From assembly GCF_016461955.1 (NCBI RefSeq), contig NZ_JADMNM010000006.1:1-64000 (forward strand): DNA of 64,000 nucleotides, given 5' to 3'. Origin of the DNA: Qipengyuania sp. YIM B01966. GTDB lineage: Bacteria; Pseudomonadota; Alphaproteobacteria; Sphingomonadales; Sphingomonadaceae. This document shows, piece after piece, positions 25,247-30,202 of this stretch. Position 1 is the stretch's first letter. Every line of letters begins with the position of its first letter. Under the pieces are notes generated by a model that worked only from the letters and a program-made list of their open reading frames with translations, made no database searches and was not told the origin of the DNA. A program made the translations under genes and the position numbers.

Positions 25247-26428
25247 TTACCCGAAAATCCTTCGCGTCCGCTCAAGCCCGCGCAGCAGCGCGGCAATGTC
25301 GCTTTCGTCCGAATAGAGCCCGAAGCTCGCCCGCGCGGTCGCTGGCACGCCCAGCCAGTCCATCAGCGGCTGTGCGCAATGATGGCCGGCGCGGATCGCC
25401 ACGCGCTCTTCGTCCAAGATAGTGCCGAGATCGTGCGGATGCACCCCGTCGAGCATGAACGATACGATCCCGCCGCTGCCCTCCGGCCCGAACAGCGTCA
25501 CATCATTGCGCTGGCGCAGCGCGGCGCGCAGCTGCCTGCCGAGCGCCGCCTCGTGCTCCGCGATTTCGGCGCGGCCGACGCTGTCGACATAGTCGCAGGC
25601 CGCAGCAAAGGCGATCGCCTCGACGATGGCCGGGGTGCCGGCTTCGAAGCGCTGCGGCGGCGCGGCATAGGTGCTGCCGGAAAACGCCACCCGCTCGATC
25701 ATCGCCCCGCCGCCCTGCCACGGGGGCATGGCCTCAAGCAATGCGGCCCGCCCCCACAAGGCGCCAATGCCGGTGGGGCCATAAATCTTGTGCGCGCTGA
25801 ACGCATAGAAATCGCAGTCGAGCGCGGTAACACCGACCGGGATGCGCGGCGCCGCCTGGCAGCCGTCGAGCAGCAGGCAGGCGCCAGACTTGCGTGCGAG
25901 GGCCGCCGCGCGCTTCACGTCGAGCACCGAGCCCAGCACGTTCGACATATGCGCCAGCGCGATCATGTCGAACTCGGTGGTCAGCAGCGCCTCGGCCGCA
26001 TCGAGGTCGATCCGGCCATCGGCGGTCAGCGGGCAGACGGTGATCTCCCAGCCGGCGAGCTGCCAGGGGACGATGTTCGAGTGATGCTCCAGCTGGCTCA
26101 GCAGCACGCGGCGCCGCTTGCCCGGCACACCGGGAAACTGGCGCGCGACCAGATTGATCGCCTCGGTCGCGCCGCGGGTGAAGACCAGCTCGTCCTCGTG
26201 CCCGCCGATGAACGCCGCCACCCGCCGCCGGGCCGCCTCGAAGGCCAGCGTCATGTCGGCGCTGCGGGCATAGACCCCGCGGTGAACCGTGGCGTAACTC
26301 GCGCCCAGGGCGCGCGCCGCCGCCTCGATCACTGCCAGCGGCTTCTGCGCGGTGGCGGCCGTGTCGAGATAATGCCACGGCGCACCATCGGGCAGGGTTA
26401 GGCCCGGGAAATCCGCCCGCCGGCTCAT
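25247..26428 (-). CDS. sufS: Cysteine desulfurase SufS
   Basis: A 393-residue PLP enzyme of the group II desulfurases that releases sulfur from cysteine for Fe-S assembly. PLP Lys214 lies in SAHKIYGPTG, and catalytic Cys351 in RAGHHCAQPLM. ATVHRGVY and EHHSNIVPW are further family marks. A SufE partner is not in the window. The ATG overlaps the sufD stop (ATGA). Confidence 0.96.
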   Translation of the reverse strand: MSRRADFPGLTLPDGAPWHYLDTAATAQKPLAVIEAAARALGASYATVHRGVYARSADMTLAFEAARRRVAAFIGGHEDELVFTRGATEAINLVARQFPGVPGKRRRVLLSQLEHHSNIVPWQLAGWEITVCPLTADGRIDLDAAEALLTTEFDMIALAHMSNVLGSVLDVKRAAALARKSGACLLLDGCQAAPRIPVGVTALDCDFYAFSAHKIYGPTGIGALWGRAALLEAMPPWQGGGAMIERVAFSGSTYAAPPQRFEAGTPAIVEAIAFAAACDYVDSVGRAEIAEHEAALGRQLRAALRQRNDVTLFGPEGSGGIVSFMLDGVHPHDLGTILDEERVAIRAGHHCAQPLMDWLGVPATARASFGLYSDESDIAALLRGLERTRRIFG

Positions 26429-27168
26429 CGTGGTGCGCCCGGTAACGCCGCCAGCGCGGCCCCCGTCAGCGTCTCGCGAGCGGCATCGTCAGGGAGGTCG
26501 CCAAAGGCATCGCCGATAAACGCCTCGACCAGCAGGCGGCGCGCGGCGTCAGGGCCGATCCCGCGCGCGGCGAGATAGAACGCCGCCGCATCGTCCAGCT
26601 GGCCGACCGTGGCGCCATGGGCGCATTTGACGTCGTCGGCATAGATTTCGAGCTGCGGCACGGCATGGGCGGCTGCCCCGCGTTCGAGCAGCAACCCCTT
26701 GAAGCTTTGTGCCGCATCGGTCTTCTGCGCCCCGCGCGCGACCGCCACGGTACCGAGGAAATTGCCCGCGCCCTGCCCCCAATGGACCGCGCGGACCACC
26801 TGCTCGCTGGTGCCGCCGGGCGCTGCATGGGTCACGCGGGTAACGATCTCGCGCACACTGTCGCCGCCGCCCAGCATCACCGCGCCAAGCGTGAAGCGCG
26901 CGCCTTCGCCCAGCGTCACCTCCAGCTCGACCCGGCCCAGCGCGCCCGCCGCATTGACCGCGAACAGTGCATAATGCCCGCCCGCGGCCACCTCGACCCG
27001 GCGGCGCAGGATCGGCGCGGCATCGCTGACGATCAGACTGTCGCTGACTGTTTCGCCAGCGCCGACCGCCAGCGCCTGCCAGTCGGGCACGCCGCTCTGC
27101 GCCAGCGCCTCGACCGCCGAATAACGCCATGCCTCGTCATGACGGGTGGGGAGGGGTGCGGTGGCCAT
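26425..27168 (-). CDS. sufD: Fe-S cluster assembly protein SufD (short form)
   Basis: A 247-residue product, much shorter than the roughly 420-residue E. coli SufD, lacking most of the N-terminal helical part. The beta-helix core is recognisable: YADDVKCAHGATVGQLDD, AFYLAARGI and LLVEAFIGDAF. It forms the SufBC2D scaffold with SufB and SufC. The first base of its ATG is the last base of the sufC stop. Short SufD forms are usual in related alphaproteobacteria. Confidence 0.92.
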   Translation of the reverse strand: MATAPLPTRHDEAWRYSAVEALAQSGVPDWQALAVGAGETVSDSLIVSDAAPILRRRVEVAAGGHYALFAVNAAGALGRVELEVTLGEGARFTLGAVMLGGGDSVREIVTRVTHAAPGGTSEQVVRAVHWGQGAGNFLGTVAVARGAQKTDAAQSFKGLLLERGAAAHAVPQLEIYADDVKCAHGATVGQLDDAAAFYLAARGIGPDAARRLLVEAFIGDAFGDLPDDAARETLTGAALAALPGAPR

Positions 27169-28001
27169 TACGCCGCGATGCTTTCATAGCCGCCGCGCTC
27201 CAGCTCGAGCGCAAGTTCCGGCCCGCCGGTGCGGACGATGCGCCCGTCGGCCAGCACGTGGACGAAATCGGGGCGGACATAGTCGAGCAGGCGCTGGTAA
27301 TGGGTGATCAGCAGCACCGCCTTGTCGGGTCGGCGCATGATCGCGTTGATCCCTTCGCCGACAACGCGCAGCGCGTCGATATCAAGCCCACTATCGGTTT
27401 CGTCGAGGATCGCCAGCGCCGGGTCGAGAATGCCCATCTGGACCATCTCGGCACGCTTCTTCTCGCCGCCGGAAAAGCCGACATTGACCGGGCGCTTGAG
27501 CATTTCCATGTCGAACTGGAGCAACGCCGCCTGCTCGCGCGCCAGCTTTAGGAACTCGCCGCCCGACAAAGGTGCATCCCCACGCGCCGCGCGCTGGGCA
27601 TTGAGCGCTTCGCGCAGGAACTGGACGTTGGAAACGCCGGGGATTTCGACCGGGTACTGGAAGCCGAGGAACAGCCCGGCAGCTGCACGCTCATGCGGTT
27701 CGAGCGCGAGGAGGTCTATCTCGTCACCCCGGGCTTCATCCGGGGTCCCGCTTTCTGTGCCAAGCTGGGCCCCGGCTCCGGGGCCGGGGTGACGAAAGGG
27801 CGATTTGAACCTCACCGTCCCCCCCGTCACTTCGTAACCCGGGCGGCCGCCCAGCACATAGCCGAGCGTCGATTTGCCCGCGCCATTGGGGCCCATGATG
27901 GCGTGGACCTCGCCCGCATTGATGGTCAGCGACAACCCCTTGAGGATCGGCGTGTCGGCAACGTTGGCGTGAAGGTCGGTGATCTGGAGCATCGGGGTCA
28001 T
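27168..28001 (-). CDS. sufC: Fe-S cluster assembly ATPase SufC with in-frame insertion
   Basis: A 277-residue ABC-type ATPase, about 28 residues longer than usual SufC. Walker A GPNGAGKS is at 37-44; the signature FSGGEKKRAEMVQ, Walker B LAILDETDSGLD and the LFLGFQYPVEIPGVSN region are intact. The extra residues (about 66-94, reading FRHPGPGAGAQLGTESG and onward) lie between the strand VRF and LLALEPHERAAAG and are encoded by a palindromic DNA element. The frame is preserved, so the protein is probably functional. It lies between a DUF559 gene and sufD with 4-nt and 1-nt overlaps. Confidence 0.95.
   Translation of the reverse strand: MTPMLQITDLHANVADTPILKGLSLTINAGEVHAIMGPNGAGKSTLGYVLGGRPGYEVTGGTVRFKSPFRHPGPGAGAQLGTESGTPDEARGDEIDLLALEPHERAAAGLFLGFQYPVEIPGVSNVQFLREALNAQRAARGDAPLSGGEFLKLAREQAALLQFDMEMLKRPVNVGFSGGEKKRAEMVQMGILDPALAILDETDSGLDIDALRVVGEGINAIMRRPDKAVLLITHYQRLLDYVRPDFVHVLADGRIVRTGGPELALELERGGYESIAA
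27721..27795. repeat. Palindromic repeat element inside sufC
   Basis: A 75-bp (25-codon) element bounded by perfect 12-bp terminal inverted repeats, TCGTCACCCCGG (27721-27732) and CCGGGGTGACGA (27784-27795). The inner parts are imperfectly complementary. The GTCACCCCGG...CCGGGGTGAC pattern matches a dispersed repeat I know from sphingomonad intergenic regions. It is read in frame on the minus strand without a stop. Confidence 0.85.
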
Positions 28002-28528
28002 TTCGGTCTGTCGTCGCGCCGCTTGGGGCGCGAATAATGCTGGTTGGGATTGGCCGCGGCGTGCGCGCGGGCGGCGTCCTTCTTGTCGGCGATTCGCATC
28101 CGCATCCCGGCGGTGATCCGCGCCAGCACCGCGTCGATATTGTCGAGAATGTCGGACGCCTTGATCCGCATCACCCGGATGCCGACAGCCTCGAGGCTCT
28201 TGTCGCGGCGCTTGGCCAGCGTGTCGTTCTGGCCTTCCTCGTCGATGGCGATGGCCATGCCGAGATTGTGGCAGTTGAAATCGACAATCGCGCTGCCGAC
28301 CACGGCATAACGCTTGAAGGTATACCGCCCGAGATCAGCCTTGGCGAAGCGCGCGGCCAGCGCCTTGTGCGCCGGCGAGGCCTCGCGCCGCATCTGCCGC
28401 GCCTGATCGTGCAGCACGTCGAGCCGGCTCGAAGATATCTCCCACCCGCGCCCCTTCTTCTTGAGCGCGGGGGCTGGGTCTGCGGCCTCGGAGGGATCGC
28501 GGAGTTGGAGGGTCTTGCGGTCAGTCAT
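27998..28528 (-). CDS. DUF559 domain protein (Vsr-like endonuclease fold)
   Basis: A 176-residue protein. The DUF559 core (about 40-135) has RREASPAHKALAARF, VVGSAIVDFNCHNLGMAIAIDEEGQ and DKSLEAVGIRVMRI, the usual restriction-like fold pattern in which the acidic residues of IVDF and IDEEG would bind metal. A basic tail follows. Its position inside the suf operon between sufB and sufC, with an 8-nt overlap upstream and a 4-nt overlap downstream, is notable; a link to Fe-S assembly is unproven. Confidence 0.82.
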   Translation of the reverse strand: MTDRKTLQLRDPSEAADPAPALKKKGRGWEISSSRLDVLHDQARQMRREASPAHKALAARFAKADLGRYTFKRYAVVGSAIVDFNCHNLGMAIAIDEEGQNDTLAKRRDKSLEAVGIRVMRIKASDILDNIDAVLARITAGMRMRIADKKDAARAHAAANPNQHYSRPKRRDDRPK

Positions 28529-28724
28529 AGGCTTTCGCTCTTTGAATGAGAGACAGCGCGAGCAAGCCTGCGATGATCACCCACGGCAAATAGACCACGG
28601 CAACCGTGAACGTGTTAATCGGCGGCAGATACGGAAAGCCGAGCATAAAAAAGCCGATCGAGAGAACGGCTCCCGAAATGGCGAGCCAGACGCCGAGCAG
28701 CATTCCGATCGACAGGCGCATCAC
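28521..28724 (-). CDS. Small membrane protein in the suf operon
   Basis: A 67-residue protein with two hydrophobic segments (about 5-28 and 38-60) and a short basic tail. I do not recognise a family. It overlaps the sufB stop by 4 nt and the DUF559 start by 8 nt, so it is embedded in the operon and likely translated. The start could also be the second Met. Confidence 0.65.
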
Positions 28725-30202
28725 CCCACACTCCCCTCGAGGCTGATCGCCAGCAGCTTCTGCGCCTCGACCGCGAATTCCATCGGCAGCTCTTTCAGCA
28801 CCTCTTTCGCAAAGCCGTTGACGATCAGCGCCACCGCCTCTTCCTGGCCCAGCCCGCGCTGCATGGCGTAGAACAGCTGGTCATCGGAAATCTTGCTGGT
28901 GGTGGCCTCGTGCTCGACCTGCGCGGTGGGGTTTTTCACCTCGATATAGGGCACGGTGTGCGCGCCGCATTGGTCGCCCAGCAGGAGGCTGTCGCACTGG
29001 GTGAAATTGCGCGCGCCTTCGGCATTGGCGCCCATCCGCACCAGCCCGCGATAGGTATTGTCGCTGCGCCCCGCGCTGATGCCCTTGGAGATGATCGTGC
29101 TGCGCGTGTTGGCTGCATTGTGGATCATCTTGGTGCCGGTATCGGCCTGCTGGTAATTGTTGGTCACCGCGACCGAGTAGAATTCGCCCACGCTGCCCTC
29201 GCCATTCAGCACGCAGCTGGGATATTTCCACGTCACCGCGCTGCCGGTTTCGACCTGCGTCCAGCTCACCTTGCTGCGCGCGCCCTGGCACAGCGCCCGC
29301 TTGGTGACGAAATTGTAGATTCCGCCCTTCCCTTGTGCATCGCCCGGATACCAGTTCTGGACGGTCGAATATTTGATTTCCGCATCGTCCAGCGCGACCA
29401 GTTCGACCACCGCGGCGTGGAGCTGGTTTTCATCGCGCATCGGCGCGGTGCAGCCTTCCAGATAGCTGACATGGCTGCCCTTCTCGGCAACGATCAGCGT
29501 GCGTTCGAACTGCCCGGTATTCTCGGCATTGATGCGGAAATAGGTGCTCAGCTCCATCGGGCAGCGCACCCCTTCGGGAACATAGACAAAGGTGCCGTCG
29601 GAAAAGACCGCGCTGTTGAGGCAGGCGAAGAAATTGTCGCGCACCGGCACCACCTTGCCCAGCCAGCGGCGGACAAGGTCGGGATATTCGCGGATCGCCT
29701 CGGAGATGGAGCGGAAGATGACCCCGGCGGCCTCCAGCTCCTTGCGGAAGGTGGTGGCGACCGAGACGCTGTCGAACACTGCATCGACCGCGACCTTGCG
29801 CGCGCCTTCCACCCCGGCGAGCACCGCCTGTTCGGCCAACGGGATGCCGAGCTTGTCATAGACCGCCTTGATCTCGGGATCGAGCTCATCGAGGCTGGCG
29901 AGCTTGGGCTTGGCGCGCGGGGCGGCGTAGTAATAGGCGTCCTGATAATCGATCGGCGGATAGCCGACGCGGGCCCAGTCGGGCTCGGGCATGGTCAGCC
30001 AGTGGCGAAACGCCTTCAGCCGCCAGTCGAGCATCCATTCGGGCTCGTCCTTCTTGGCCGAGATGAACCGCACCGTGCTTTCATCAAGCCCCTTAGGCGC
30101 GAAATCGGTGGCGATGTCGGCCGACCAGCCGTGCTCGTAATCGGCCGCACGGGCAGCGGCTTCGCGCGCGGCGCGGTCCTGCACATCCACATCGTCGGTC
30201 AT
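28721..30202 (-). CDS. sufB: Fe-S cluster assembly protein SufB
   Basis: A 493-residue scaffold subunit. Characteristic stretches: [73 protein letters not shown] and [20 protein letters not shown]. These cover the beta-helix that holds the nascent cluster together with SufD. Length is normal. It overlaps the upstream Rrf2-type regulator gene by 4 nt. Confidence 0.97.

Follow-up and report, generated by a model that had tools for sequence, protein, structure and literature searches.

How does a palindromic repeat come to lie in frame inside a core ATPase, and does its presence in SufC of Qipengyuania sp. YIM B01966 reflect one insertion of one element? We addressed this question in a stretch of 64,000 nucleotides (contig NZ_JADMNM010000006.1, positions 1 to 64,000; hereafter the window), in which the suf operon runs in the order Rrf2 regulator, sufB, two small ORFs, sufC, sufD and sufS. 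The relevant features are:

28721 to 30202, minus strand: sufB, same operon, above the cut-offs of both NF008773 and TIGR01980
27168 to 28001, minus strand: sufC, Fe-S cluster assembly ATPase, 277 aa with the insert included (TIGR01978, E 7.9e-96)
27870 to 27893, minus strand: Walker A GPNGAGKS, residues 37-44, intact, nearly all positions invariant in the SufC alignment
27717 to 27806, minus strand: insert proper, codons 66-95, in place of the three-residue turn x-G-x of empty alleles (from the alignment with these)
27721 to 27795: palindromic element of 75 bp with perfect 12-bp terminal inverted repeats (arm search)
27722 to 27749, plus strand: first CGTC-tagged repeat unit, tag at its outer end (zero-mismatch pattern match at 27723-27748)
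27767 to 27794, minus strand: second, inverted CGTC-tagged unit, tag at its outer end (fuzzy pattern, one error)
27453 to 27473, minus strand: ABC signature SGGEKKR, residues 177-183, intact, invariant in the SufC alignment
27399 to 27416, minus strand: Walker B LAILDE, residues 196-201, intact, with A, L, D and E invariant in the SufC alignment
26425 to 27168, minus strand: sufD, same operon (TIGR01981, 163.3 bits, below the cut-off of 222)

The sufC ORF scores 320.2 bits against TIGR01978 (cut-off 212.8), the match falling into two stretches of which the better covers residues 93-274. It carries Walker A, signature and Walker B at residues 37-44, 177-183 and 196-201. The arms of the element (27721-27732 and 27784-27795) are 12 nt long and 100% complementary, 75 bp end to end. 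The insert as a whole supplies 90 nt, or 30 codons, for a turn of three residues, a net gain of 27. Thus the first-pass annotation was right to describe a palindromic element in frame within sufC, to put the added residues at about 25-28 and to state that the ATPase motifs, all three of which lie outside the insert, are untouched. The window's SufD is short (247 aa), and one small ORF between sufB and sufC (27998-28528) shows a weak DUF559 match.

The element is an inverted dimer of CGTC-tagged units, reading CGTCA..TGACG at its outer ends, and opposite units were also found on contigs C39, C42 and C43 of the same genome. A stem of 8-9 bp with a loop of 4-5 nt and a CCA-like tail was recognised by eye in one intergenic copy (L002); the sufC copy is less regular. 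RNA of 27706-27812 folds at -52.8 kcal/mol (z -3.2). An AlphaFold model of the window's SufC has a mean pLDDT of 87.3, with residues 74-91, between strand 56-66 and short strand 94-96, falling under 50. Insert aside, the model superposes on E. coli SufC of the SufBCD crystal (5awf_C, target TM 0.94), and by sequence the insert site lies between residues 64 and 66 of the E. coli protein. As modelled, the insert is a disordered loop and the rest of SufC is normal. Single-contig genomes (G112, G227, G076 and G303) carry inserts of the same kind, which makes an assembly artefact unlikely.

The annotation had envisaged one insertion of one element. A first search covered 59 genomes, own included, all with SufC. 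Comparison of 30 SufC loci gave 27 with the short turn and three (G000, the window's genome, G016 and G028) inserted at the same codon position, from three genera and with three different palindromes. The survey was widened to 397 genomes of the Sphingomonadaceae, with an empty SufC as query. SufC was found in 386, and 37 of these, from 16 of 96 genera, hold an insert at exactly this turn, flanked by the strand '..GSVxF', or one much like it, and by 'DLL' or NLL. Around 90% of family genomes have no insert there. Therefore the in-frame element stands, but the reading as a single event is incomplete, since this one turn holds eight palindrome types. The annotation's own refuting condition, that all relatives carry the same segment with unrelated DNA, was half borne out: a minority carry unrelated palindromic DNA, and about nine in ten lack the segment.

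For most of the 386 genomes the empty state was called from the E-value of the best-matching stretch, because the match breaks in two at an insert; anything shorter than about 10 residues would probably escape notice. We read 52 genomes in detail, comprising 46 low scorers and six normal-scoring sisters. The low scorers comprised 34 inserted alleles, nine empty ones and three (G166, G321, G408) cut before the site, and the 34 together with G000, G016 and G028 make up the 37; G391 shows only the right half of an insert. Two low scorers from the genus of the empty G005 (G122 and G184) were outside the detailed reading. In total 92 empty SufC rows were read; some come from named records or from the order-level search, and a few loci may be counted twice. 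The 80 named loci divide into 57 read as empty, 21 that escaped the pattern but have matches of empty-allele length, and two with an insert. Of these two, one is Sphingomonas adhaesiva DSM 7418 and the other an uncultured Sphingorhabdus that by sequence is one of the 37. With S. adhaesiva and two later finds (G643, G644), the inserted genomes seen number 40. SufC of G007 (C1:1303508-1304243; L088, L091) appears as two overlapping matches in different open frames with an empty turn, possibly through a frameshift or an assembly error.

By sequence, the inserts at the SufC turn fall into eight palindrome types, several of them unrelated, with these encoded peptides:

Type A: VRAEPVEA..PSTSSGRT
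Type B, the window's: RHPGLDPGS..TPDQVRGDE
Type C: PLPLAGG..PPLTPPASGRG
Type D: RHPRESGGPA..DSRFRGND
Type E: RHCEERSDAAI..GLLRSARND
Type F: IPGESRGP..LDPGFRRG
Type G: FVPSEVEG..
Type H: PVLDTG..

In DNA, the CGTCA/TGACG tag is common to B, D and E and a GTTCG start to A and G; C and F have neither. The 38 insert rows measured encode 28-54 residues. The longest, a type C insert (L078, G392), seems to contain another palindrome within its right half. We also sampled 23 inserted genomes in 40 stretches of 20 kb each, 800 kb in all with 735 predicted genes. Taken together, these hold all eight types outside sufC, with 70 hits of all patterns against 6 in Markov-resampled DNA. In only 4 of the 23 genomes (G016, G112, G252, G251) the type found in sufC recurs elsewhere in that genome's own sampled 20-60 kb, a small sample.

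How such repeats move was a question raised at the outset. In the 2.44 Mb of the window's own genome, a search for the repeat unit that allowed up to 3 mismatches gives 18 matches (reversed control pattern, 0), of which 17 overlap no predicted gene and the single genic one is sufC. The repeat is thus multi-copy and mostly intergenic, in the manner of a CGTC-tagged REP, and its annotation as usually intergenic is true for this genome. Genes were predicted with a codon-usage gene finder trained on the long ORFs of 855 kb of this genome, 91% of which it called coding, and later retrained. Several type E units cluster in one intergenic region (C22:14400-14929). A RAYT-type transposase had been suggested as the mover. 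A profile search with the Y1 transposase family PF01797 gave 0 matches in this genome, and only 8 of 36 other genomes with a SufC insert have one. A RAYT is therefore an unlikely mover, failing in the own genome and not general among inserted ones, and the Y1/RAYT transposase by which a RAYT-mobilised REP would be recognised is missing here. The CGTC-tagged REPs described by Di Nocera et al. (2013; PMC3733652) resemble the window's element: as far as the available text of that paper goes, they have the tag, a short-loop stem-loop and inverted dimers, are mostly intergenic, occur mainly in alphaproteobacteria, lie in some sphingomonad genes and have no dedicated transposase.

On balance, we lean towards the following reading. 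The x-G-x turn in the beta-hairpin that follows Walker A would be an 'address' for palindromic repeats in the SufC of Sphingomonadaceae. In several lineages a repeat dimer would have replaced the turn, giving a long-loop allele whose roughly 30 extra residues may form a disordered loop that SufC tolerates. This allele would then be inherited and at times passed between species by recombination, and the palindrome in its core may be swapped for other repeat types, putatively by recombination or template switching at the palindromes and without a dedicated transposase. One site holds many types, none was found in LptB or in the SufC searched beyond the family, and presence is clustered on trees; the peptide is weakly constrained in two pairs and the loop disordered in the models. 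We infer from these the swapping within an inherited long loop. Among the observations against this reading are that no SufC allele was recognised with a long loop but lacking a palindrome, and that the sufC type recurs in so few of the sampled genomes.

A possible but unlikely alternative is that the repeats hit many genes and selection purges nearly all of them, the SufC turn being among few harmless places; each inserted allele would be a separate event and no long loop inherited. Insert disorder in the models and weak constraint fit this account, and sufC is not the sole gene hit in the family because repeats are reported in other sphingomonad genes, which also favours it (available text of PMC3733652). 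A profile search for LptB bears against it: of 149 genomes, all 147 with LptB match close to full length, and none has an insert. LptB is an ABC ATPase with the same general fold as SufC. Among the matches listed in a search of the order (196 genomes, 192 with SufC, many from the family) no clear SufC insert was found in other families, judged by E-value, with a low score in G426. A search of the class matched SufC in 90 of 142 genomes, and the match is split at this site in the own genome (G000) only.

In the 40 stretches, 29 clusters of repeat hits lie inside predicted genes, and 18 of these are sufC. Of the remaining 11, a dimer near the end of an Rrf2-type regulator accounts for one and a single ORF of unrecognised identity for two; the other eight are lone hits, each with two errors, of the loose B pattern. 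By itself this pattern hits one Markov-resampled copy of the stretches 5 times. One non-sufC genic dimer among 735 predicted genes, and that near a gene end, argues against separate captures across many genes; the other genic hits are mostly single loose matches or at gene ends, and repeats in many genes were rejected for the sampled stretches. Palindromes at L224:7472-7548 (G248) and L226:7514-7539 (G209) lie at the 3' end of a gene that at its start resembles the window's Rrf2-type regulator, and either encode its last residues or overlap its end. Palindromes of other types lie about 1-2 kb downstream of sufC (L216:11142, L221:8867, L227:11744, L228:8379 and L229:11531), where a gene begins that encodes about 415-430 residues and, from its place and size, is probably sufS. 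Therefore several suf operons hold more than one palindrome type.

To follow the history of the address we used a family SufC tree of 105 rows with the insert columns removed; one genome appears twice among its 38 inserted rows (as L046 and as L096), and L076, G643 and G644 are left out of it. Empty alleles are interspersed among inserted ones, and the empty/filled state needs at least 23 changes, against a mean of 31 in shuffled data (1 of 500 as low), with 4 of the 23 forced by strongly supported branches. Many separate gains or losses therefore remain, in keeping with independent captures. Against that account, presence is strongly clustered in genus g74 (26 genomes, 23 with SufC, 9 filled) while the palindromes differ. 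There it needs 3 changes on a DNA tree (shuffled mean 7.4, 0 of 500 as low). G076 (type E) and G152 (A) form a 100/100 pair with the flanks FRP..DGW in common. G320 (E), G209 (B), G392 (C) and G372 (F) group with three empty species (99/97), and the later finds G643 (A) and G644 (B) with one empty species (96/94).

The residues after the palindrome agree in three cross-type pairs (DGW, EESI, EEW). Over the 8 cross-type pairs of g74, 2.1 of the last 4 residues of the right flank agree against 0.87 expected (32 of 20000 shuffles), in a test devised after the pairs had been seen. The test is weak over 17 sister pairs, nine having been added (872/20000), and at the DNA level gives 526/20000 for the 8 pairs and 6661/20000 for the 17. 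The left flank of cross-type pairs gives no signal (18505/20000), and a comparison of DNA flanks over all pairs finds no excess (13 observed, 13.9 expected). Pairwise flank homology over all inserts thus carries no signal, the post-hoc test within the genus alone being positive. Beyond g74, cross-type sister pairs mostly have little flank in common, which again suits independent captures. The long loop nevertheless looks inherited while its palindrome is exchanged, because presence needs 3 changes in g74, yet neighbours differ in type and the right flank is partly shared. In this one genus, palindrome type appears to change faster than occupancy.

Moreover, filled alleles are more than empty alleles with an addition. 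G373 (filled) and G215 (empty) are 98.2% identical over the surrounding 650 bp, and even here the empty allele's turn codons are replaced, not split, the filled allele having its own flanking codons on both sides; this too speaks against independent captures. An I, V or L precedes DLL in 37 of 38 inserted rows against 1 of 67 empty ones, and P stands at the second insert position in 27 of the 38. The filled alleles therefore constitute a form of their own. Where a recent one lies beside an empty sister, the best explanation would be that the segment was exchanged with another lineage. The residue before DLL can equally be convergent structural selection, shared structural demands being an alternative.

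The annotation had also asked whether the insert affects Suf control. A rather improbable explanation is that the host selects the insert as a device, an mRNA hairpin or extra loop in sufC being useful and any palindrome sufficing; putative uses lie in how the suf operon mRNA is translated or processed, or in control of the SufC dimer or complex. The peptide itself looks loosely constrained, since its pN/pS is 0.70 and 0.22 in two related filled pairs (6 and 19 differences) and that of the rest of sufC 0.03. In the model of S. adhaesiva SufC, which has a different palindrome type, residues 68-85 fall under a pLDDT of 50. Folding fits a device better, since synonymous recoding of the same peptide gives folds that 27 of the 38 insert rows surpass by more than 2 sd, and so do the concentration on one gene in the examined stretches and the palindromes that some genomes have at the regulator gene end and the junction downstream of sufC. 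However, palindromes fold well by origin, and about 90% of family genomes manage without an insert. Moreover, 11 of the 38 rows miss a z of -2, three with no excess (L077 +0.76, L070 -0.09, L045 -0.55). Strict conservation of the hairpin, or a strict need for it, is therefore unsupported.

One ancient insertion, inherited and diverged into the present variety, is very improbable and largely contradicted already: some types share tags (CGTCA/TGACG in B, D and E), but types C (CTCCCGCTTGCGGGAGGGG), A (TTCGTGCTGAGC..TGTCGAAG) and B look unrelated, all eight types also occur outside sufC in excess of resampled DNA, and empty alleles sit among inserted ones on the tree.

Known systems offer partial parallels to a recurrent address. 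The sufC insert shares with Rickettsia palindromic elements that it is an in-frame coding palindrome in a conserved protein, and the annotation's comparison was apt, with the palindrome here in a core ATPase. In the accessible part of the R. japonica genome paper (PMC3767692), orthologues carry different groups among RPE-4/6/7 at or near the same solvent-exposed site, and the authors, weighing a hotspot against common origin, leaned to common origin with divergence. SufC differs in host family and gene, and also in its dissimilar palindromes, empty close relatives and mixed types within one genus, which speak against an RPE-style common origin as the whole answer.

The CGTC-tagged REPs are, in the part of PMC3733652 at hand, sometimes in frame in genes, and in sphingomonads dimers and groups encode 20-30 residues, as in tRNA synthetases and pseudouridine synthase B of E. 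lithoralis and S. alaskensis; R. conorii RPE-6 is there equated with CGTC-1. There, repeats in genes of one functional category occupy differing sites, except for recB of two Xanthomonas species (about the same site). SufC, which that part of the paper does not name, instead has one site in one gene, eight repeat types and 16 genera. Small non-autonomous repeats fuse in frame in conserved genes, such as Rickettsia gmk, according to the accessible portion of a review (PMC2229807), which also cites an RPE-bearing enzyme as active with altered affinity. Most such repeats are described there with TA ends and target duplications, neither of which was seen in the aligned filled/empty SufC pairs. That portion does not describe a recurrent single address such as that of SufC. 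We found no published report of SufC inserts at this turn in the mostly open literature covered. One address in one core ATPase holding many palindrome types across a family seems to be new.

In summary, the pattern across the family is more interesting than the window's single insert. It would be a long shot, if an attractive one, that the turn is a standing cassette site, with an inherited long loop whose core is exchanged without a transposase and which is kept since its hairpin or flexible loop tunes the Suf machinery. The finding also carries a warning, as palindrome-coded peptides in a conserved protein may lack common ancestry even where they fill the same alignment gap. The SufC address bears on how REP-type repeats move when there is no transposase, and on why some are found within core genes. 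With one address, 16 genera, empty sisters and several repeat types, the Sphingomonadaceae offer a direct system for separating insertion from exchange, and tolerance from use.
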